This document shows, piece by piece, positions 938-41,571 of a stretch of 44,921 bases of DNA. Source of the stretch: a virus; IMG/VR virus record IMGVR_UViG_3300035183_000649, positions 1 through 44,921 of that record; one strand, given 5' to 3'. The first letter of the stretch is position 1; every line of letters starts with the position of its first letter. The position numbers and the translations under genes are program-made. The notes below the pieces were generated by a model. It saw only the letters and a list, made by a program, of their open reading frames with translations. It did not search any database and was not told where the DNA came from.

Positions 938-3484
938 ATGCCCGACCCCCGCATCCTTTCGCTGGACACGGAGACATACGGCAAGGTTGCGACGCGTCCT
1001 CCCCAGACCGTCTTCTTCCCCCGCAAGATGACGGCCGTCGATCTCATCCCCCCCTCGGAGATCCTGACCACATGCGCCCTCACGTTGCCTTCGAGCGATC
1101 CCCGCGACGATCCTTCCCCTTCTGGCCCTTCCTCCTCTTCCTCTTCCTCTTTTTCATCACGAACGTTACGGCCTACTCCATCGGCCGCCTCCACGAGCGC
1201 GATCTTCAATCTGACCGCGCCCCAGCTCGCCTCTCTTCGTCCGGGTCCAACCCTTCTCTTCCAGTTCGACGGCCTCCCCCTCCGGTCCCGTGAGCGGCAT
1301 GAACTCCTCCTTGCCCGCTGGCTCCAGCACGCCGACGTCCTGATCGGCCAGAACCTCTGCTACGACCTCATGGTTCTCCGGGCCCACTCCCCCGCCTTCC
1401 GCACCATCCTTTCGGGCCGCCACCACCTCATCGACCTCTCCGTCCTCAACTTCCTCCACTCCGAGAACCGTCCCGAGAAGTCCCTCAAAGACCTCGGCCC
1501 CGTCCTCGGCACCCACTGCTACCCCGACGACGAGAAACAGCGCCGCTACAAATCCCCCTCCGATCCCCTCCTCCACTCCTACAACGGCCAGGACACCCAC
1601 AACACCCTCCTCTCCGCCTCCGTCCTCGCCCAGCGCATCCTCTCCGAGTACCCCAACACCGACAAACTCTCCCCCTTCTGCTTCCGCCTCTACTCCGACC
1701 TCATGTGGTCCGTCGTCCGCATGACCGAGTCCGGCGTCCCCTACTCCCTCTCCCTCCTCCACTCCCTCTTCACCCACCTCCACGCCTCCATCTCCGCATC
1801 CCGCTCCTTCTGTTCCTCCCACTCCCTCCTCGTTGACGGCCCCGGTTCACCCGCCTCCCAAACCTCCTTCCTCCGCAACCTCATCCTCCAATGCCCTCCC
1901 GACCTCCCCCTCCAGTTCACCGAGAAGAAGCACGACCTCTCCATCTCCGACCACAACCGAACCGTCATCGCCGCCGCCCTTCCCCCCTCCCATCCCTCCC
2001 AGCCCGTCCTCTCCTCCTGGTCCTCCTTCAAAACCTCCCAGAAACTCCTCTCCACCTACGTTTACCCCCTCATCCTCCATAAGCGGAACAAGCACCTCTC
2101 CCGCTCTTCCGTCCTCCTCTCTTCCTCCGATCCCCCCACCCTTCCCCCACCCCCAAGGGATCTCGTCGCATGGCTGCCCTGGAACCCCCCGTCGTCGAAG
2201 CCGCCTCTCTGCTCCCTCCCGCCCTCTCCGACTGGGCCGTCCCAGTCGTGGACCTCGCCGTCTCCCTCGGCACCACCCCCTCCAACCTCGACCGGGACAT
2301 CCTCATCCTCTCCATCAACGACGTCCTCTCCCGTTCCCCTTTCGCCCGAGTGGCCGCCATCGAGAACGACTACCACTCCCTCATCCTTCCCCGCTCCCTC
2401 TGGCTCCGCCTCACCTACTGCCGCCACCTCTTCGTCAACGAAACTCCTCTCCTCTGACCGCTTCCTGACCCACCCTTCCTGGTTCATCACGCCCTCCCCC
2501 TTCAAAGACTCCTCCGACTCCCAAGGCGGCACGCTCCAGTCCCGCATCACCTGCAAGGACTCTCCCGAACAGACCGCCCCCAAGATCATCCAGCAATGCC
2601 GCCGTTCCAGGTCCCCCTCCGGCACCCTCCTCACGATGGACCTCAAGCAGATCGAACTCTGCGTGCCCGCCCTCCTCTCGGGCGAGCCTTCCATGATGAC
2701 GGCCATCCTCGCCGACGACGACCTCCACACCCTCCGAGCCATCACCACCTTCGGCGCCGACTACCTCACCAGCAAGTACCCCGAACTGGCCGGAGTCCCC
2801 TCCAAAGAATGGAAAGACGCCTGTGAGGCCTTCGCCGAACTTGAACGTCAGGTCGGCAAGAAAATCAACTTCTCCGACTTGTTCCGCGCGGGCGCCGACA
2901 AGATCCGCAACGCCACCTACGAAGACTGCGGCATCTGGGTCCCCCTCTCCGTCTTCGAGAAGGCCGTCCGCAACCGACCCATCGACCGCCCCGTCCTCTA
3001 CGAGTGGCAGGAGCGCCTCATCCGCGACGCCCGCGCCGACGGCTACCTCTCCCTCCCCTTGACGGGCCAATCCCGCTCCTTCCTTGGGGGCACCAAGTTC
3101 GACGTCAACGAAATCGTCAACTTCCCTGTCCAGGCCACCGCCGCCAACGTCCTCCTCCGCATCCAGCACTACTGCTCCACCCGTCTCCCCTCCCTCGCCC
3201 TCTCCACCTCCCTCCACCACACCCACCTCTGCTGCAACACCTACGACGCCCTCGTCTTTGATTGCACCACCCCCCTCGCCCTCTCCGAGGCCTACTCCCT
3301 CATCCCCGAAGCCCTCGCCTGGGTCCAGACCCACGACTACTGGGCCGCCCTCCAATCCCTCTTCTCCCGCACCCTCCCCCTCTCTTATTCCCTCAAGGAG
3401 TCCGCCCGACGGCCGCCGACCTTCGTCTCCGAACCCAGATCCACCCCCCCATCCCCATCACAAGGATCAAATAATGCCTCCTAA
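938..3484 (+). CDS. polA: Family A DNA polymerase with 3'-5' exonuclease domain (interrupted by an out-of-frame segment)
   Basis: 848 aa; the ATG at 938 follows CAGGAG. Replicative phage polymerase. The exonuclease domain starts with LSLDTETYG (D10, E12) and continues with GQNLCYDL (D143). The polymerase domain shows motif A DLKQIELC (D568), motif B RQVGKKINF (K641, F645) and motif C NTYDALVFD (D770). Both metal-binding Asp residues are kept, but the usual HDE of motif C is YDA and the Tyr of motif B is Phe. Residues about 400-506 (roughly 2140-2455) are low-complexity Ser/Pro/Thr, because conserved coding there runs in another frame (see the entry at 2170). Flanks LLSTYVYPLI and THPSWFITPS match consecutive parts of the family, so the segment is an insertion. 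The 3' end overlaps the next gene by 11 bp. Confidence 0.9.
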   Translation: MPDPRILSLDTETYGKVATRPPQTVFFPRKMTAVDLIPPSEILTTCALTLPSSDPRDDPSPSGPSSSSSSSFSSRTLRPTPSAASTSAIFNLTAPQLASLRPGPTLLFQFDGLPLRSRERHELLLARWLQHADVLIGQNLCYDLMVLRAHSPAFRTILSGRHHLIDLSVLNFLHSENRPEKSLKDLGPVLGTHCYPDDEKQRRYKSPSDPLLHSYNGQDTHNTLLSASVLAQRILSEYPNTDKLSPFCFRLYSDLMWSVVRMTESGVPYSLSLLHSLFTHLHASISASRSFCSSHSLLVDGPGSPASQTSFLRNLILQCPPDLPLQFTEKKHDLSISDHNRTVIAAALPPSHPSQPVLSSWSSFKTSQKLLSTYVYPLILHKRNKHLSRSSVLLSSSDPPTLPPPPRDLVAWLPWNPPSSKPPLCSLPPSPTGPSQSWTSPSPSAPPPPTSTGTSSSSPSTTSSPVPLSPEWPPSRTTTTPSSFPAPSGSASPTAATSSSTKLLSSDRFLTHPSWFITPSPFKDSSDSQGGTLQSRITCKDSPEQTAPKIIQQCRRSRSPSGTLLTMDLKQIELCVPALLSGEPSMMTAILADDDLHTLRAITTFGADYLTSKYPELAGVPSKEWKDACEAFAELERQVGKKINFSDLFRAGADKIRNATYEDCGIWVPLSVFEKAVRNRPIDRPVLYEWQERLIRDARADGYLSLPLTGQSRSFLGGTKFDVNEIVNFPVQATAANVLLRIQHYCSTRLPSLALSTSLHHTHLCCNTYDALVFDCTTPLALSEAYSLIPEALAWVQTHDYWAALQSLFSRTLPLSYSLKESARRPPTFVSEPRSTPPSPSQGSNNAS
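2170..2457 (+). CDS. 95-codon ORF nested out of frame inside the polymerase gene
   Basis: It lies at -1 relative to the polymerase frame. It has its own AAGGGA ribosome binding site (2155-2160), ATG and TGA. Codons in this frame end mainly in C, the signature of real genes on this strand, while the polymerase frame across the same bases does not. The protein is globular-looking, with LAVSLGTTPSNLDRDIL and LPRSLWLRLTYCRHLF, and I do not recognise it. The end reads CTC CTC TGA C; a +1 slip there would rejoin the polymerase at DRFLTHPSWF, and CTC TGA C resembles the prfB frameshift site (CUU UGA C). Alternatives are a free-standing nested gene, an insertion read through two frameshifts, or two compensating indels (real or assembly errors; a C-rich tract lies at the entry). 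Confidence 0.6.
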   Translation: MAALEPPVVEAASLLPPALSDWAVPVVDLAVSLGTTPSNLDRDILILSINDVLSRSPFARVAAIENDYHSLILPRSLWLRLTYCRHLFVNETPLL

Positions 3485-3899
3485 GAAGAAACAAAAGAAA
3501 GCCTCCTCCAATAAGAAGAACCCCGCCGCCAAGTTCTTCTACGTCATCCGCGCCTGCAAGGAGGACGGCACCTCCCACGTCAACTTCAAGTGGCCCTCCA
3601 AAGGCCCCGTCAGCGCCCCCCGCTTCGTGCTCAACGGACGTTGCGGCGACGGACTCCACGGCTGGGCCTCCCTCGAACACATCGGAAGAGGAGCCCCCTA
3701 CTGGTTCGAAGACCGCAATATCGCAACCTACCACTGGCTCCTTGTCAGGGTCCCTTTCCGCTACCGGGGCCGAATCAACTACCAGAAGCTCGACCCCCAC
3801 AAAGTGAAGTTCAAGCACGGCTACGTCGTCCAGACCGACAACTTCTTCCCTACCATCCGGAAGTTTGCCCTCTTGACAAAGGGCAAAGACCTGCCCTAG
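3474..3899 (+). CDS. Small basic protein of unknown function
   Basis: 141 aa. The ATG at 3474 overlaps the end of the polymerase gene by 11 bp and follows AAGGA at 3462. The first 20 residues are very rich in lysine, which suggests nucleic-acid contact or a flexible tail. The rest looks like a compact alpha/beta domain rich in aromatic residues (for example FFYVIRA, LHGWASLEHI, TYHWLLVRVPF). I do not recognise a family. Coupling to the polymerase gene suggests a role in replication, but this is inference. Confidence 0.7.
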   Translation: MPPKKKQKKASSNKKNPAAKFFYVIRACKEDGTSHVNFKWPSKGPVSAPRFVLNGRCGDGLHGWASLEHIGRGAPYWFEDRNIATYHWLLVRVPFRYRGRINYQKLDPHKVKFKHGYVVQTDNFFPTIRKFALLTKGKDLP

Positions 3900-3902
3900 C
3901 CT
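3873..3902 (+). promoter_or_regulatory. Possible sigma70-type promoter
   Basis: TTGACA (3873-3878), an 18-base spacer and TAGCCT (3897-3902). The -35 is a perfect consensus; the -10 is weak. It overlaps the stop codon of the preceding gene and lies just before the helix-turn-helix gene, whose ATG is at 3908, so a transcript would start inside that gene and could serve the tRNAs and nuclease downstream. Predicted by eye only. Confidence 0.3.
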
Positions 3903-3907
3903 CCTCC

Positions 3908-4231
3908 ATGAGCAAGACCACCCACATCGACCGCCTCCGGGCCCTCGGCATCAAGAACCCCATCAGGCGATACCTTCTTTCCGGCAGGTCGGTGAGGGAC
4001 ACCGCGAAGGCTTTGGGCATCTCGACCGTTCGCGTCTACGAATACGCGAACGCGCACGACCTCCCCACCAACAAACCCATCCGGCCGGGCTCCACCTACG
4101 AGAAGCAGGTGCACGCGCTCCTCCACCAGAAGGAGTTCCCCCTCCGGCTCGTGGCCCGACTCCTCAGAACCTCCTACCCCCACCTCCTCGCCCTCAAACG
4201 CAAGACCTCCAAGTCACGCCCTTCCATCTGA
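3908..4231 (+). CDS. Helix-turn-helix DNA-binding protein
   Basis: 107 aa. Residues about 27-52 (SVRDTAKALGISTVRVYEYA) fit a helix-turn-helix: a first helix, a Gly turn and a recognition helix. A second, weaker helical pair follows near the C-terminus (LRLVARLLRTSYPHLLALKR). The protein is basic, as expected for DNA binding. It may be a transcription regulator or a small terminase-like protein, but the packaging genes are far away on the other strand, so a regulator is more likely. The ATG is 8 bp after the preceding stop, with only a weak ribosome binding site. Confidence 0.7.
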   Translation: MSKTTHIDRLRALGIKNPIRRYLLSGRSVRDTAKALGISTVRVYEYANAHDLPTNKPIRPGSTYEKQVHALLHQKEFPLRLVARLLRTSYPHLLALKRKTSKSRPSI

Positions 4232-4329: not shown

Positions 4330-4371
4330 GGACATCGGAGCAGGGTTGACCGCCGCGAAAGTGCGGCACTT

Positions 4372-4446
4372 GACGGCGTAGCTCAGCCCGGACAGAGCAG
4401 GCCGGTCCTAACGGCAAGGTCGCAGGTTCGAATCCTGCCGTCGTCT
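4372..4446 (+). tRNA. tRNA-Arg (anticodon CCT)
   Basis: 75 nt. The acceptor stem GACGGCG pairs with CGTCGTC (one G-U). The D-arm is GCTC/GAGC, the anticodon stem has one mismatch at its outer pair with loop GTCCTAA, and the T-arm is GCAGG TTCGAAT CCTGC. The anticodon at loop positions 34-36 is CCT, which reads AGG. No CCA is encoded. AGG is rare in most genes of this window but frequent in the helicase gene at 43434-44855, which gives a plausible reason for carrying this tRNA. Confidence 0.85.
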
Positions 4447-4447
4447 T

Positions 4448-4519
4448 TCCCTGGTGGCTCAACGGTAGAGCGGCCCCCTTTGGAGGGGCGGGTTGCGGGT
4501 TCGAATCCCTCCCAGGGTG
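4448..4519 (+). tRNA. tRNA-Gln (anticodon TTG)
   Basis: 72 nt, one base after tRNA-Arg, so the two are probably processed from one transcript. The D-arm is GCTC/GAGC, the anticodon stem is a perfect 5 bp (GCCCC/GGGGC) with loop CTTTGGA, and the T-loop is TTCGAAT with one T-stem mismatch. The anticodon is TTG, reading CAA. The first acceptor pair is T-T, and the discriminator is G; a weak first pair and G73 are known features of tRNA-Gln. No CCA is encoded. Confidence 0.8.
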
Positions 4520-4520
4520 T

Positions 4521-5174
4521 TTGCAGCGGTCCCACCTCATCCTCATCGACGACCGGGAGAAAACACCCCTCCTGTTCCCCCCCTTCCTCACCGTCGCGGG
4601 GGGCTCCGTGCCCTGGTCCCCCTCCGGTCGGACCCTCCTGATCCACACCCTTTCGCGCCGCCTGCCCACCGGCGACTACGTCCTCTCCGAGGCGCCCGAT
4701 CGGGGCTGCGTCGAACGGAAGGCCCACCTCTCCGAGTTGCACGGCAACCTCTTCACCGAGAAGCGATACCTCCTGTTCGCCGACGAGCTGAAACGTCTCC
4801 GGGACCACTTCTCCCACCCCCTCCTCCTGATCGAAGGGTCCCCCACCAAACCCCTTCCCGTCCGGCCGGGGCTCCCCCCTCCGGACCTGATCCTGGACGT
4901 CCTCATGGGTCTGCTGACCCGCTATACTGTCCCCGTCCTCTTCCTCGACGCCTCTACCGTGGACGCTCGTAGGAACGTGGCACGGATCGTGGCGCGACAT
5001 CTCCTGCACGCCGCGTATGGAGACACCCCATGTTCGTCGAGTTTGTCGCCCCCAAAGTCACCCCCACCGACATCAACACCTCCTCCGGCATCGCTTCTCG
5101 CGGCGGCGTCCCCCTCATCGCCGCCCTCCCCGCCCTCGACGGCGTTGACTACATCACCTTCCTCTGGCACCTGA
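4521..5174 (+). CDS. ERCC4-type (XPF-like) nuclease
   Basis: 217 aa from a TTG start that begins one base after the tRNA-Gln gene. The ERCC4 nuclease signature is clear: ILIDDREKTP (D10, D11, E13), then GDYVL (51-53) and VERKAHLSEL (E65, R66, K67), followed by LLLIEGSP. These residues bind the metal in XPF/Mus81-type nucleases, which cut branched or flap DNA, so a role in replication fork or recombination processing is likely. The last 48 residues are Ser/Pro-rich and overlap the next gene by 145 bp in another frame; they look like run-on sequence. The start is uncertain because of the tRNA directly upstream. Confidence 0.85.
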   Translation: MQRSHLILIDDREKTPLLFPPFLTVAGGSVPWSPSGRTLLIHTLSRRLPTGDYVLSEAPDRGCVERKAHLSELHGNLFTEKRYLLFADELKRLRDHFSHPLLLIEGSPTKPLPVRPGLPPPDLILDVLMGLLTRYTVPVLFLDASTVDARRNVARIVARHLLHAAYGDTPCSSSLSPPKSPPPTSTPPPASLLAAASPSSPPSPPSTALTTSPSSGT

Positions 5175-5377
5175 CCCAGACCGGCGGAACGACCAAGTTC
5201 ACCCTCCAGTGCGCCCTCTCCATCGACGGCCCTTGGATCGACATGCACACCGTCACCTCCCTCAACGCTTCCGACTCGGGCTTCAAGCAACTGCCCAAGG
5301 CCCCCCTCTGGCGTCTCTTCTTCGACACCACCTCCATCGGCACCGCCCTCGTCCTCACCGCCGGTGTCGTCGGCTGA
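5030..5377 (+). CDS. Small beta-rich protein of unknown function
   Basis: 115 aa. The ATG follows GGAG and lies inside the end of the nuclease gene. The sequence alternates short hydrophobic and polar stretches (YITFLWHLTQTGGTTKFTLQ, WRLFFDTTSIGTALVLTAG), which fits a small beta-sandwich. It resembles small phage accessory virion proteins in style, but no family is recognised. The next two genes encode exported proteins, though this one has no signal peptide. Codons end strongly in C, which supports real coding. Confidence 0.65.
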   Translation: MFVEFVAPKVTPTDINTSSGIASRGGVPLIAALPALDGVDYITFLWHLTQTGGTTKFTLQCALSIDGPWIDMHTVTSLNASDSGFKQLPKAPLWRLFFDTTSIGTALVLTAGVVG

Positions 5378-5408
5378 TTCCCCCTCCGGTCCCCTTGGAG
5401 TCCACCCC

Positions 5409-6053
5409 ATGAAACGCATCTGCTTCGGCCTCGCCCTGCTCGCGCTTAGCGGCGTTCTTCTCGCCCTTGCCCAGCCCGTCCCTACCTCCACCGGCCAGTT
5501 CCGCACGGCCCCCATCACCGGCACCGGTTCCTCCGACTACGCCATCACCATCGGCAACCGCTACTCCCAATCGACCGTTTCCGGGTGGTCCCGCACCGTC
5601 ATCGAACTCACCAACGGCGACCCCTCCAACCGCCTCGTCCGCGTCGATCTCTCCTTCTGCGCCAACTCCGCCGCCGCCACCGTCCCCTTCCGCATCTGGC
5701 TCGGCAAGAAGGGCCTCGGGGCCACCCCCGACTTCGAGTACCAGCTCCTCGGCACCGGCTCCTTCACCACCCGTGCTTCCGGCGCGGGCGTCGCCGCCTC
5801 CTCCATCATCACCTCCTCCGAGTACGTCGCCGACACCGTCTCCTTCGTCCCCGCCACCGCCGCCACTTCCCCCATCGGCATCTACGACCTCCTCAACGCC
5901 TCCTACGGCACCACCTATACCGTCTTCTCCCCCGGCTCCCTCGTGCCCGCCCACCTCCTCATCAGCGACCTTGGCAACTACCGCTTCCTCATCTTCGACG
6001 CCGATCCCGGCAACGGCGTCAACCCCTCCGCCATCATCGACCCTGGCACCTGA
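5409..6053 (+). CDS. Exported beta-rich protein with signal peptide
   Basis: 214 aa; the ATG at 5409 follows GGAG. The N-terminus MKR, a hydrophobic core (FGLALLALSGVLLALA) and a cleavage-like AQ form a typical Sec signal peptide. The mature part is rich in Ser, Thr and Gly and looks like beta-strands. It contains SAAATVPFRIWLGKKG, which resembles SAVTFSLWLGATG in the small protein encoded at 27746-28117 in the tail gene cluster, so the two may share a fold. Exported proteins are unusual in phage genomes. A role at the host surface or in the periplasm is possible, but unproven. Confidence 0.7.
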   Translation: MKRICFGLALLALSGVLLALAQPVPTSTGQFRTAPITGTGSSDYAITIGNRYSQSTVSGWSRTVIELTNGDPSNRLVRVDLSFCANSAAATVPFRIWLGKKGLGATPDFEYQLLGTGSFTTRASGAGVAASSIITSSEYVADTVSFVPATAATSPIGIYDLLNASYGTTYTVFSPGSLVPAHLLISDLGNYRFLIFDADPGNGVNPSAIIDPGT

Positions 6054-38441: not shown

Positions 38442-38730
38442 GGGTCTGCTCCTTCACGGGGGCGGGACGGGCGGCGAACCCACGGGGGACGAAGCCTCGG
38501 GGCATGAGGTCGGTATGGAGGACCTGCTTGGGAGCCGCGAGTTCCCCCTCCGGTTGGGAGATGGCGGCGGGGGGTGCGGTGCCGAGTTCGGTGGCGAGGG
38601 AGGCGGCGGATTGGCCCTTGCGGGGGCCGGTCCCGTAGTAGCACGAGAAGAGGCGGTCGGCCAGCGCCTGGGGGATCTGGACGTACCCGGAGGGCGCGGA
38701 GGGGTGGGGGGAGTCAGATTCGGGTTCCAT
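38431..38730 (-). CDS. Small protein between terminase and portal
   Basis: 99 aa. The ATG at 38730 follows GGAGAGG; a GTG at 38748 is possible but lies outside a good ribosome binding site. It overlaps the terminase end by 17 bp and the portal start by 11 bp. The middle is helical (IPQALADRLFSCYYG), the ends are Pro-rich. The family is unknown. Its position suggests a packaging or portal accessory role. Confidence 0.6.
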   Translation of the reverse strand: MEPESDSPHPSAPSGYVQIPQALADRLFSCYYGTGPRKGQSAASLATELGTAPPAAISQPEGELAAPKQVLHTDLMPRGFVPRGFAARPAPVKEQTHAQ

Positions 38731-41251
38731 GGGGCCTCTCCGTTTCACGGGAGTCTATGACGGCCATCGTGAGGGAAGCGGGCACCGAGCAGATATCGAC
38801 GGCGAGACCGAGGGGCAGGGCGGTGCTCCGGTCGCTGGCGTGGATTTCCCCCTCCATAAGGCGCTGGATGGGGGACTTCGAGGACTGGGGGGCGGAAGAC
38901 TTGCCGGGGCGGCGGCGGCCTTTGAGCACGAACTTGGACATGGCGACGGTGTCGATGCAGTTGTGGACGAGGATGCTCCCCGCGAAGAACTCAGGGTGCT
39001 CCTCCACCGTCAGATTCCAGGTCTGGCTCTTTGTGGATGCGGTGTTGGCTGACAGCGTCTCGGGCTTCGTGGCGGGCGAAATGCTCGGGACCGGCAAGGG
39101 CCTCAAGGTTGGAAAGGTCGTTGTTGAGGGGGTTTCCGTCCCGAGGGTGGACGTGACTCCCGGGCGGGCCGGGTCCGTGCGCGGGTTCTTAGGGGTCTCG
39201 GAGGTGTTGGGGGTGCTGGCGTCCTTGGAACTCGATGGTTTCGCGGGAAGGCACGACAGAACGATATCACTGTGTTGGAGGGAGTTGAGGGGGACCCAGC
39301 CCCTCCCCTCCGTCCAGATTGGATGGGAGGGGGTGGCGGTGATCCCATAGCGCGTGATGACTTCTTTCTCTCCCGTGCACCATGCTTTGAGGACACGCCG
39401 CCACCCGAAGCGAGTGAGGACTTCGTCGGACGTGGTGACTTCCGCGATGGGGATGTCCCCCCTCCGGGTTGTGATGGGGGTGGAGGGAGGGAAGCAGTCG
39501 TCGTGCTCCAAACCGCCGTTCTGGGCTTCCGGGTTGAAGCCTTCGATCTGGGCCAGGAGCTGCTCGAAGAAGGCCTTGTGCTTGAGGTGGCGGGGGAACT
39601 TGATGAGGAGGTGCTCGAAGCGGAACGAGAGGGACTCGATCTTCTGCTCTTTGGGCTCGACGCCCACCTTGAGGGGCTTGACGGCGGGCAGCCAGGAAAG
39701 GCCCAGGTGCTCGGGGCCCTTGGTCCGGACGATGTCCAGCATCTCGTTGAAGAAGGTGATGGAGCCCTTGAGGTGCTCGATGAAGAGGGTGGGGACGCGC
39801 CACCGGGCGCAGAGGGAGAAGCACTCGCGGATCGCCTTGTCCTTGCCGCACTGGGCCGCCCACCCGTCCAGGACGAAGAGGACGTTGGTGACGGGGTCGT
39901 GGAGCATCACGACGCACGTCTTGTAGTCGGAGGAGGTGTTGGAGGTGTAGGAGTAGTCGGAGCAGGCGAAGAGGTTCCCCCTCCGGAGGAGGTCGGAGAA
40001 GAGGAGGGACGTGGTTTCGGCGGCGCCGTCGGACTTGCGGACGCGGAAGTGGATGCGGGAGGCGGAGCCCCAGGGGTTGGTCTGGAGGGAGTCATCCACC
40101 TCGGAGAACCAGAAGTCGAAGTCGTCCTCCTTGTCGGCCAGGAGGGGGAAGCACCGTTCCTCGGAGTCGCCGGGCTGACCCTGGGCCTCGGCCAGCCACG
40201 CACGCTCGCCCATGGCGCGGCGGACGTCGGCGATGGTCATGGTGTCGGGGGCCAGGTTGAGACGGGCCTTCTCCTCTTCGTCAACCGGCCACGCGTGGGG
40301 CCAGCAGGATTCGGGCTTCTGGGTGAGGGGGTTGGTGCGGAGCTGCTGGATGTGGTAGCGGGCCCACTGTCCGAAGCGGGCGTCCCGGGGGCGGGGCCCC
40401 TCGGGCGTGTCGATCATGGACATGGCGTGCCACGAGTAGTGCCGCTTGGAGACATGGGTGGCGGTCCAGTCGAAGCCGCGCCCTTTCAGGATCACCATGG
40501 GCATGATGACCCGGTTGACGAGACGGTCCATGTACTCACGGACGTTGATCATGGAGGTGGACGCTTTTTCGTCGTGCTCGGGGTCGTCGAGGCGGTAGCG
40601 GCGGGGGCGAAGACCACGCTGGCGGCCTTCGGAGGAGATGGGCTGGAGCCACGACTTGTTGCGGAGGTAGAAGAGTTCGACGCCGGTGGAGTTTTCGTGC
40701 TTGGAGGGACGGAGGGGCCCACCGTACTCGGGACCGAAGTCGTCGTTGAGGCGGCGGTTGTTGTAGATCTGGTCCCGCATCTGTTCGGAGCGGAGCAGGG
40801 CGTTCTTGTGGACAAGGGTGCAGTAGACGACGGAGTAGGCGGGCGCCGTGACGAGGCGCTTGATGGTGTCCGTTTTGACGAGGGTGGACTTGGCGGAAGA
40901 TCGGGGGGCGATGGCCAGGCACTGCCGGTACATGTTCCACATGCGGACGAGGTCGTAGTGGAAGTCGGCGGAGGGCAGGGGCGTGTCGTCGTAGTAGAAG
41001 GGGTCGAAGTCGTCGGCCGGATCCGCGTGGAGGTAGTAGTGGTCGAAGAAGTCGTGGGAGGCGGCGGCCGCGTCTCCGACCAGGGTCAGGCGGGAGAGGT
41101 CGGGGTGGTCCGGCATCTCGTCGGCTGGGATCAGCCACTGGCGGGAAGCGCAGACGCGGGCTTGTCGCTGGCCCCCCACCGTCAACGAGTCGTAGTCGGC
41201 GGGCAGGGGGTAGAGGGGGTTCCCTTCCCAAGAGAAGGGAATGCGCTTCAT
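38714..41251 (-). CDS. terL: Terminase large subunit containing an intein
   Basis: 845 aa as translated (666 aa after splicing). The ATG at 41251 overlaps the upstream stop by ATGA. The N-terminal motor part has CLAIAPRSSAKST, a Walker A-like loop at 116-123. Later YRLDDPEHDEKAS fits the Walker B region. The nuclease part has ACSDYSYTSN and VVMLHDPVTNVLFVLDGW. The conserved HDDxIDT at the nuclease end is split exactly by an intein (residues 586-764). The enzyme packages DNA into the head and cuts it, so splicing should be needed for activity. Confidence 0.9.
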   Translation of the reverse strand: MKRIPFSWEGNPLYPLPADYDSLTVGGQRQARVCASRQWLIPADEMPDHPDLSRLTLVGDAAAASHDFFDHYYLHADPADDFDPFYYDDTPLPSADFHYDLVRMWNMYRQCLAIAPRSSAKSTLVKTDTIKRLVTAPAYSVVYCTLVHKNALLRSEQMRDQIYNNRRLNDDFGPEYGGPLRPSKHENSTGVELFYLRNKSWLQPISSEGRQRGLRPRRYRLDDPEHDEKASTSMINVREYMDRLVNRVIMPMVILKGRGFDWTATHVSKRHYSWHAMSMIDTPEGPRPRDARFGQWARYHIQQLRTNPLTQKPESCWPHAWPVDEEEKARLNLAPDTMTIADVRRAMGERAWLAEAQGQPGDSEERCFPLLADKEDDFDFWFSEVDDSLQTNPWGSASRIHFRVRKSDGAAETTSLLFSDLLRRGNLFACSDYSYTSNTSSDYKTCVVMLHDPVTNVLFVLDGWAAQCGKDKAIRECFSLCARWRVPTLFIEHLKGSITFFNEMLDIVRTKGPEHLGLSWLPAVKPLKVGVEPKEQKIESLSFRFEHLLIKFPRHLKHKAFFEQLLAQIEGFNPEAQNGGLEHDDCFPPSTPITTRRGDIPIAEVTTSDEVLTRFGWRRVLKAWCTGEKEVITRYGITATPSHPIWTEGRGWVPLNSLQHSDIVLSCLPAKPSSSKDASTPNTSETPKNPRTDPARPGVTSTLGTETPSTTTFPTLRPLPVPSISPATKPETLSANTASTKSQTWNLTVEEHPEFFAGSILVHNCIDTVAMSKFVLKGRRRPGKSSAPQSSKSPIQRLMEGEIHASDRSTALPLGLAVDICSVPASLTMAVIDSRETERPHGTRI
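38960..39496 (-). other. Intein in the large terminase (179 aa)
   Basis: The intein starts with Cys (CFPPSTPITTRRGDIPIAEV) after HDD and ends with ILVHN before Cys (CIDTVAM). Block B is TATPSHPIWT with the conserved Thr and His, the late block is TWNLTVEEHPEFFAGS, and the final His-Asn is present with Cys as the first residue of the downstream extein. All residues needed for standard class 1 splicing are there. The insertion is in the active-site motif of the nuclease, a known intein site in terminases. The central linker (about residues 660-740 of the whole protein) is Ser/Thr/Pro-rich in this frame, because an HNH domain is encoded out of frame. Confidence 0.92.
38991..39264 (-). pseudogene. 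HNH homing endonuclease segment, out of frame inside the intein
   Basis: Reading -1 relative to the terminase frame gives RETIEFQGRQHPQHLRDP, a TAA stop (39189-39191), then SHVHPRDGNPLNNDLSNLEA followed by LAGPEHFARHEARDAVSQHR and a TGA at 38991. This is a clear HNH motif: His (VHPRDGN), Asn (NPLNND, SNLE) and His (EHFARH). Codons in this frame end mostly in C, so it was under protein selection recently. No start codon follows the TAA before the motif, so it is not a complete free ORF. It is most likely the intein's endonuclease, shifted out of frame by compensated indels, or made by frameshifting. Confidence 0.8.
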
Positions 41252-41571
41252 GAGAGGTTCCCCGAGTAGAAGAGGTGGTGTACGGCGACGAAGCGGAGGA
41301 TCACGCACGACGCGTACTGGGCGTCGAGGGGCGCCTGGGAACGGTCAAAGAGGGTGTTGTAGAGGTGGGAGAGGCGGGCGGTCGGCTCCCCCTCCGGAGT
41401 GAGGAGTTCGTTGCGGTAGAGGGTGCCGAGGGTCGCGCGATCCTTGACCATGTCGGAGGGGTAGGCCATGCCGAAGGAGGGCAGGGCGGTGGCCCCCCAC
41501 CCGAAGAAGTCCTCGGGGTGGAGTTTGCGGAGGAAGGAGAGGACGTCATGGAACAGGGGCGTCCGGAGCAT
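41248..41571 (-). CDS. Small protein upstream of the large terminase
   Basis: 107 aa. The ATG at 41571 overlaps the previous gene by 26 bp, and the stop overlaps the large terminase start by ATGA. The sequence is helical and aromatic-rich (FHDVLSFLRKLHPEDFFGWG, SCVILRFVAVHHLFYSGN). Next to terL, it could be a packaging accessory protein. An open frame further upstream is Pro-rich shadow sequence of the neighbour and is rejected. Confidence 0.6.
   Translation of the reverse strand: MLRTPLFHDVLSFLRKLHPEDFFGWGATALPSFGMAYPSDMVKDRATLGTLYRNELLTPEGEPTARLSHLYNTLFDRSQAPLDAQYASCVILRFVAVHHLFYSGNLS

Follow-up and report, generated by a model that had tools for sequence, protein, structure and literature searches.

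Background

Inteins are usually described as one polypeptide that combines splicing and homing, as mini-inteins, or as split inteins. We analyzed an intein in the large terminase subunit gene (terL) of virus record IMGVR_UViG_3300035183_000649, a single contig of 44,921 bases (the whole stretch is hereafter called the window), together with the remnant of an HNH homing endonuclease gene that the same DNA holds in another frame. The nearest published case is the hidden HNH of the ShiLan domain, which has no splicing domains and is encoded in the third frame of a phage methylase gene that is itself uninterrupted (PMC11855218). Its authors detected neither an intein nor an intron splicing domain, and their proposal is that the protein retains the insert (PMC11855218). 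The terL intein family described here resembles ShiLan in that an uninterrupted host open reading frame (ORF) harbours, in another frame, an HNH with its own start codon and a disjunct distribution, but its HNH sits inside a complete intein whereas ShiLan has no splicing domain.

The family shares with classical bifunctional inteins the Hint splicing domain, the position of the endonuclease between blocks B and F, and the use of phage host genes. In the classical form, however, endonuclease and splicing domain are one polypeptide, whereas here the HNH is in the −1 frame. An intein with an in-frame HNH_3 domain is found in the dCTP deaminase of cyanophage CL131 (PMC6293099), and the TerL inteins of mycobacteriophages lie in the ATPase domain (PMC5050341) rather than at the nuclease-domain site occupied here.

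Split inteins are a third point of comparison, as they can also have a separate endonuclease gene between the intein halves, but inteins of this family are unbroken, and the endonuclease gene overlaps them in a different frame. Dassa and colleagues reportedly described, in 2009, fractured genes with a split intein and a free-standing endonuclease between its halves. Candidate split (trans-splicing) terminase inteins were present among our loci as well: L010 (Lactobacillus phage CL2), L016 (Vibrio phage 1.245.O), L017 (Brochothrix phage BL3), L204, L213, L043, L032, and L250. Stop codons appeared to part terL within the intein in these candidates, and a free-standing HNH gene lay between the N- and C-terminal intein halves (IntN and IntC); in the first five this gene belonged to the same HNH family as the nested ones. 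A full-text literature search returned no description of an intein with an out-of-frame endonuclease, and one preprint, Gosselin et al. 2025, may be prior art. That preprint, cited by the ShiLan authors, is said to treat actinobacteriophage inteins of 'non-canonical architecture' and may cover out-of-frame endonucleases.

An intact terL intein with a decayed out-of-frame endonuclease

We propose, with a probability of roughly 0.88, that the window carries a decayed member of a dual-coding intein family whose −1 frame encodes a separate HNH. Ribosomes reading the terL frame would pass through an N-terminal splicing domain, a long unfolded linker, and a C-terminal splicing domain, and the terminase would be made and spliced. 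The same DNA would yield, in the −1 frame, an HNH homing endonuclease of ~160–215 amino acids as a separate protein, translated from its own start and often with a ribosome-binding site of its own. This enzyme would cut intein-free terL genes and thereby spread the element. In the phage of the window the endonuclease gene has been lost by mutation (start lost, stop gained, deletions), and a total length loss in a multiple of three has preserved the terL frame and the splicing domain. The proposal draws on features that were observed: the layout and its conservation, the avoidance of stops, the bias among codon positions, the signals at start sites, and the decay of the window copy.

The terL ORF (38,714–41,308, minus strand) was identified by profile matches to phrog_38 (terminase large subunit, E = 1.8e-26, residues 76–605) and phrog_30251 (E = 4.6e-13), and by tblastn to terL of Tetrasphaera phage TJE1 and Rhodobacteraceae phage LS06-2018-MD07 (LS06). 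It is interrupted in frame by the intein (38,960–39,496, minus strand), which comprises 179 amino acids from Cys1 to Asn179, with Cys as the +1 residue, and occupies the nuclease-domain site of terL (HDD^C ... HN^CID). The translation, CFPP...TPSH...ILVHN and then Cys, contained the class 1 intein signature: Cys1 in block A, TPSH at residues 55–58 in block B, a terminal HN (VHN), and the +1 Cys. C1, H58, and N179 were invariant in an alignment of 39 related inteins. AlphaFold2 gave a confident Hint fold, with predicted local distance difference test (pLDDT) scores mostly >94 in the splicing domain, and the best PDB match of this model in Foldseek was the Ssp DnaB mini-intein (E = 4.8e-6). The N-terminal splicing domain (residues 1–81, with TxxH at 55–58; 39,254–39,496, minus strand) was aligned with relatives and had a pLDDT of ~97 for most of its length. 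The C-terminal splicing domain (residues 154–179; 38,960–39,037, minus strand), placed by alignment and structure, ends in TVEEHPEFFAGSILVHN. The linker between them (residues ~82–150; 39,047–39,253, minus strand) was low-complexity and without a predicted fold (pLDDT mostly <50), and its DNA holds the out-of-frame HNH remnant. The terL frame was open through the whole insert, linker included, and no stop parted the N and C halves as in a split intein. An earlier note on this DNA had described the splicing blocks at 38,960–39,496 as intact and in frame with terL, and translation, alignment, and the Hint-fold model all bore this out. On this evidence the insert is an intact class 1-type intein inside terL, with splicing itself predicted. 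When the complete TerL of the window was used as a direct query against IMG/VR, no match was returned, because relatives share the intein and not close exteins.

Phage HNH genes are often located in group I introns, and the insert might be a self-splicing intron of group I or II that harbours an HNH gene, with its likeness to an intein incidental. We consider this vanishingly unlikely. An Rfam intron search of the window and nine related loci gave no match, the insert has a full Hint fold with invariant splicing residues, and it is open in the terL frame.

The codons of the HNH frame start at 39,560, −1 (+2) relative to terL, and read HVHPRDGNPLNNDLSNLEALAGPEHFARH. This frame matched Pfam HNH_3 (PF13392) at E = 2.1e-5 and 24.5 bits, just below the curated cut-off of 24.8. 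A hidden Markov model (HMM) of related HNH proteins matched the remnant at E = 2e-15, a value that is inflated because the 11-sequence seed of the model included the remnant; the Pfam match is independent of that seed. A PDB sequence search with the remnant found no match. The frame reading and the HNH_3 match uphold the claim that the DNA between the splicing blocks encodes an HNH endonuclease in the −1 frame. By that reading and by alignment, the decayed gene runs from a GTG at 39,254 to a TGA at 38,993–38,991 (38,991–39,254, minus strand), with the HNH core at 39,027–39,185 (minus strand; Pfam HNH_3 and the family HMM).

The nearest inteins to that of the window were L111 and L087 (N-domains 61% and 59% identical), and the HNH gene of both was intact and lay in the −1 frame. 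Translation confirmed a TAA in the HNH frame of the window at 39,189–39,191 (minus strand), where aligned relatives have a nearly invariant Trp. The ATG start was lost, with S-RETIEF in place of the M-RETIEF of L087. Compared with L087 and L111, ~24 codons between GRQH and PQHLRD were absent (junction at approximately 39,212–39,213, minus strand, with the terL frame kept) and the whole C-terminal zinc-finger tail was gone. The second His of the HH pair in the core, a pair invariant in 43 relatives, was Pro. The window copy was thus not a complete, uninterrupted HNH with the invariant HH pair. Its intein was 537 nucleotides (nt) long vs 852 and 903 nt in the two nearest relatives, and the differences were divisible by three. 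The endonuclease in the window is, as far as these changes tell, dead, with the splicing residues and the terL frame retained. The TAA, the lost start, and the length loss in a multiple of three agree with the earlier suggestion of a silenced endonuclease, a kept terminase frame, and a step toward a mini-intein, and they support placing the window copy at a probable stage between homing intein and mini-intein. Relatives that are mini-inteins include L101, L132, L144, L163, L168, and L169.

One of the two earlier explanations was that recent compensated indels silenced the endonuclease by moving it, once in frame, out of frame. The HNH of the window is clearly broken and length changes relative to relatives exist, but contiguous relatives, including the nearest two, already have an intact HNH in the −1 frame with no indels needed, and the length loss of the window is a multiple of three. 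We therefore give this history very little credence.

The same frame relation across relatives

Searches of phage records with tblastn found the intein in terL of TJE1 and LS06, both with an intact HNH with its own ATG between the splicing blocks and the same frame relation to terL. Acinetobacter phage Highwayman had an identical layout. The HNH gene was missing from the annotation of all three records, an example of how annotations miss such endonucleases. IMG/VR was scanned twice with HNH alignments and once with the intein N-domain only, one further scan covered genome contigs, and loci were sorted with HMMs that model the HNH and the N- and C-domains of the intein. All 193 HNH matches in contiguous open inteins (164 distinct HNH sequences after duplicate removal) were in the −1 (+2) frame. 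The homologous terL inteins with an in-frame HNH that the earlier note had wished to align were therefore not among them (0/193). The N-domain scan, which was blind to the HNH, gave 63 nested loci, 8 mini-inteins without HNH, and again none in frame. An in-frame HNH was detectable by the same pipeline: L263 (815–1681), related to the out-of-frame HNH family, is an in-frame HNH intein in a ribonucleotide reductase-like gene (the extein named from flanking residues only) of an Armatimonadetes metagenome-assembled genome. In ~20 loci stops divided the intein and the HNH lay between its halves; the frame of the HNH varied among these loci, which makes them a natural control.

Nested loci came from isolate phages (TJE1, Highwayman), IMG/VR contigs, and bacterial and archaeal contigs. 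The exteins scanned were large terminases (44/46 members matched phrog_2), and at most insertion sites the sequence was (N/D)H^C ... HN^CxDAxRY. HNH_3 (PF13392) was matched by the HNHs of 47/47 intact relatives, and the predicted structure of the L087 HNH had a pLDDT of 90.8.

The window is a single virus contig, and a sequencing or assembly error could have produced its out-of-frame HNH. An error could at most account for the TAA or one substitution, however, and the same frame relation was present in the isolate genomes of TJE1 and Highwayman, in LS06, and in ~190 other loci. Such an error is highly improbable, and as the cause of the frame offset it is excluded by the contiguous relatives that share the −1 frame. 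Judged by these sequence comparisons, a large intein family has this offset as its standard layout, which is real and widespread and not a sequencing fault.

Several loci departed from the simple arrangement. L131 had two inteins close together (3028–3942 and 4333–5472), each with an HNH in the −1 frame, at sites that differ (GYS^C..HN^CDPSACSE vs FNH^C..HN^CIDGVRY) and that putatively lie in one terL ORF by extein residues. Two N/C pairs were also present in L158 and L060. L197 and L194 had an unusually long insert (918 nt gap), in which the −1 frame contained a second partial match to HNH. The dual-coding terL intein was also found on contigs binned as archaea (L245, Methanomethylophilaceae; L246, Thermoplasmatales).

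Selection on dual coding

Stop codons were depleted in the intein frame of nested HNH genes. Across 150 distinct HNH genes (mean 194 codons) none was found, vs 2.0 expected per gene from shuffling of synonymous codons, and the third frame of the same genes contained 18.2 stops vs 18.8 expected. The −1 frame of free-standing relatives was not depleted, with 132 stops seen vs 128 expected (summed over 21 distinct genes). Only in genes that are located within an intein, therefore, is the frame held open. The use of the intein frame can be explained by its potential stops, which are about nine times fewer than in the other frame (2.0 vs 18.8 expected). In 14 independent pairs of related loci, substitutions at HNH codon positions 1/2/3 numbered 342/273/763, and protein identity was higher in the HNH (0.82) than in the linker (0.65). 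From this codon-position bias and difference in identity, the HNH is the constrained product and the linker mainly needs to avoid stops.

Synthesis of the HNH

The HNH gene occupies the gap between the splicing domains almost precisely, with a median start 17 nt past the N-domain and a median stop 14 nt into the C-domain. A Shine-Dalgarno core lay 4–11 nt before the most-upstream ATG in 65/139 loci (47%), vs 31/584 internal start-like codons (5%). Programmed −1 ribosomal frameshifting, by which a TerL-IntN-HNH fusion would be made, was the other route proposed earlier, and the occurrence of the HNH in the −1 frame in every case speaks for it. Yet the stop counts alone explain that frame. The median distance from an HNH-frame stop to the HNH start downstream of it was 8 codons, −1 slippery heptamers were present in 13/152 related loci and so not conserved as programmed frameshifting would have them, and Shine-Dalgarno motifs mark the HNH starts. 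We regard frameshifting as unlikely, and these signals favour independent internal initiation as the probable route of HNH synthesis. The proposed separation of splicing and homing from one message thus holds in part: the family evidence points to a split into two proteins, probably via internal initiation, and frameshifting falls away as the means.

Some considerations weigh against our proposal of a dual-coding family with a decayed member in the window. Protein splicing, HNH translation, and DNA cutting are all things that we infer for this family, about half of the HNH starts were without a clear Shine-Dalgarno motif, and the best PDB match of the HNH model was weak (I-HmuI, E = 0.08). The loci are related, so that the counts are not independent events, and the collections were sampled with patterns from few seeds.

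Mobility and evolutionary implications

Free-standing members of the same HNH family adjoin terL in many phages, a position that suggests, without proving, that terL is the target of the family. L201 and L203 were 99% identical in the HNH and 94% in the intein N-domain, and their terL exteins were 64% identical; these values suggest that the intein may be mobile. The HNH tree was weakly supported and required a minimum of 27 changes among the nested, split, and intein-free states, a count made with some false 'no intein' labels in the tree set (L046 is nested and L036 possibly so). Repeated gain or loss of states is likely, and the direction cannot be told from the tree.

We lean, with moderate confidence, toward a broader interpretation. 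These loci would form a widespread class of dual-coding inteins, so far without a name, that occupy a single nuclease-domain site in terL and occur in phages and on bacterial and archaeal contigs. The HNH would be encoded by a gene of its own that overlaps the intein, has its own start, and is locked into the frame in which stops depend on the wobble bases of the HNH, and the selfish gene would thus not easily be parted from the splicing element that protects it. A large family with its two activities in two overlapping genes would be a natural system for the study of overlapping-gene evolution, and it opens the questions of why the HNH always takes the same frame, how stops are kept out of the host frame, and what follows when the endonuclease decays, a process in which the window copy is a candidate intermediate.

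Elsewhere in the window, two adjoining tRNA genes, for Arg (CCT) and Gln (TTG), were located at 4372–4520 on the plus strand.
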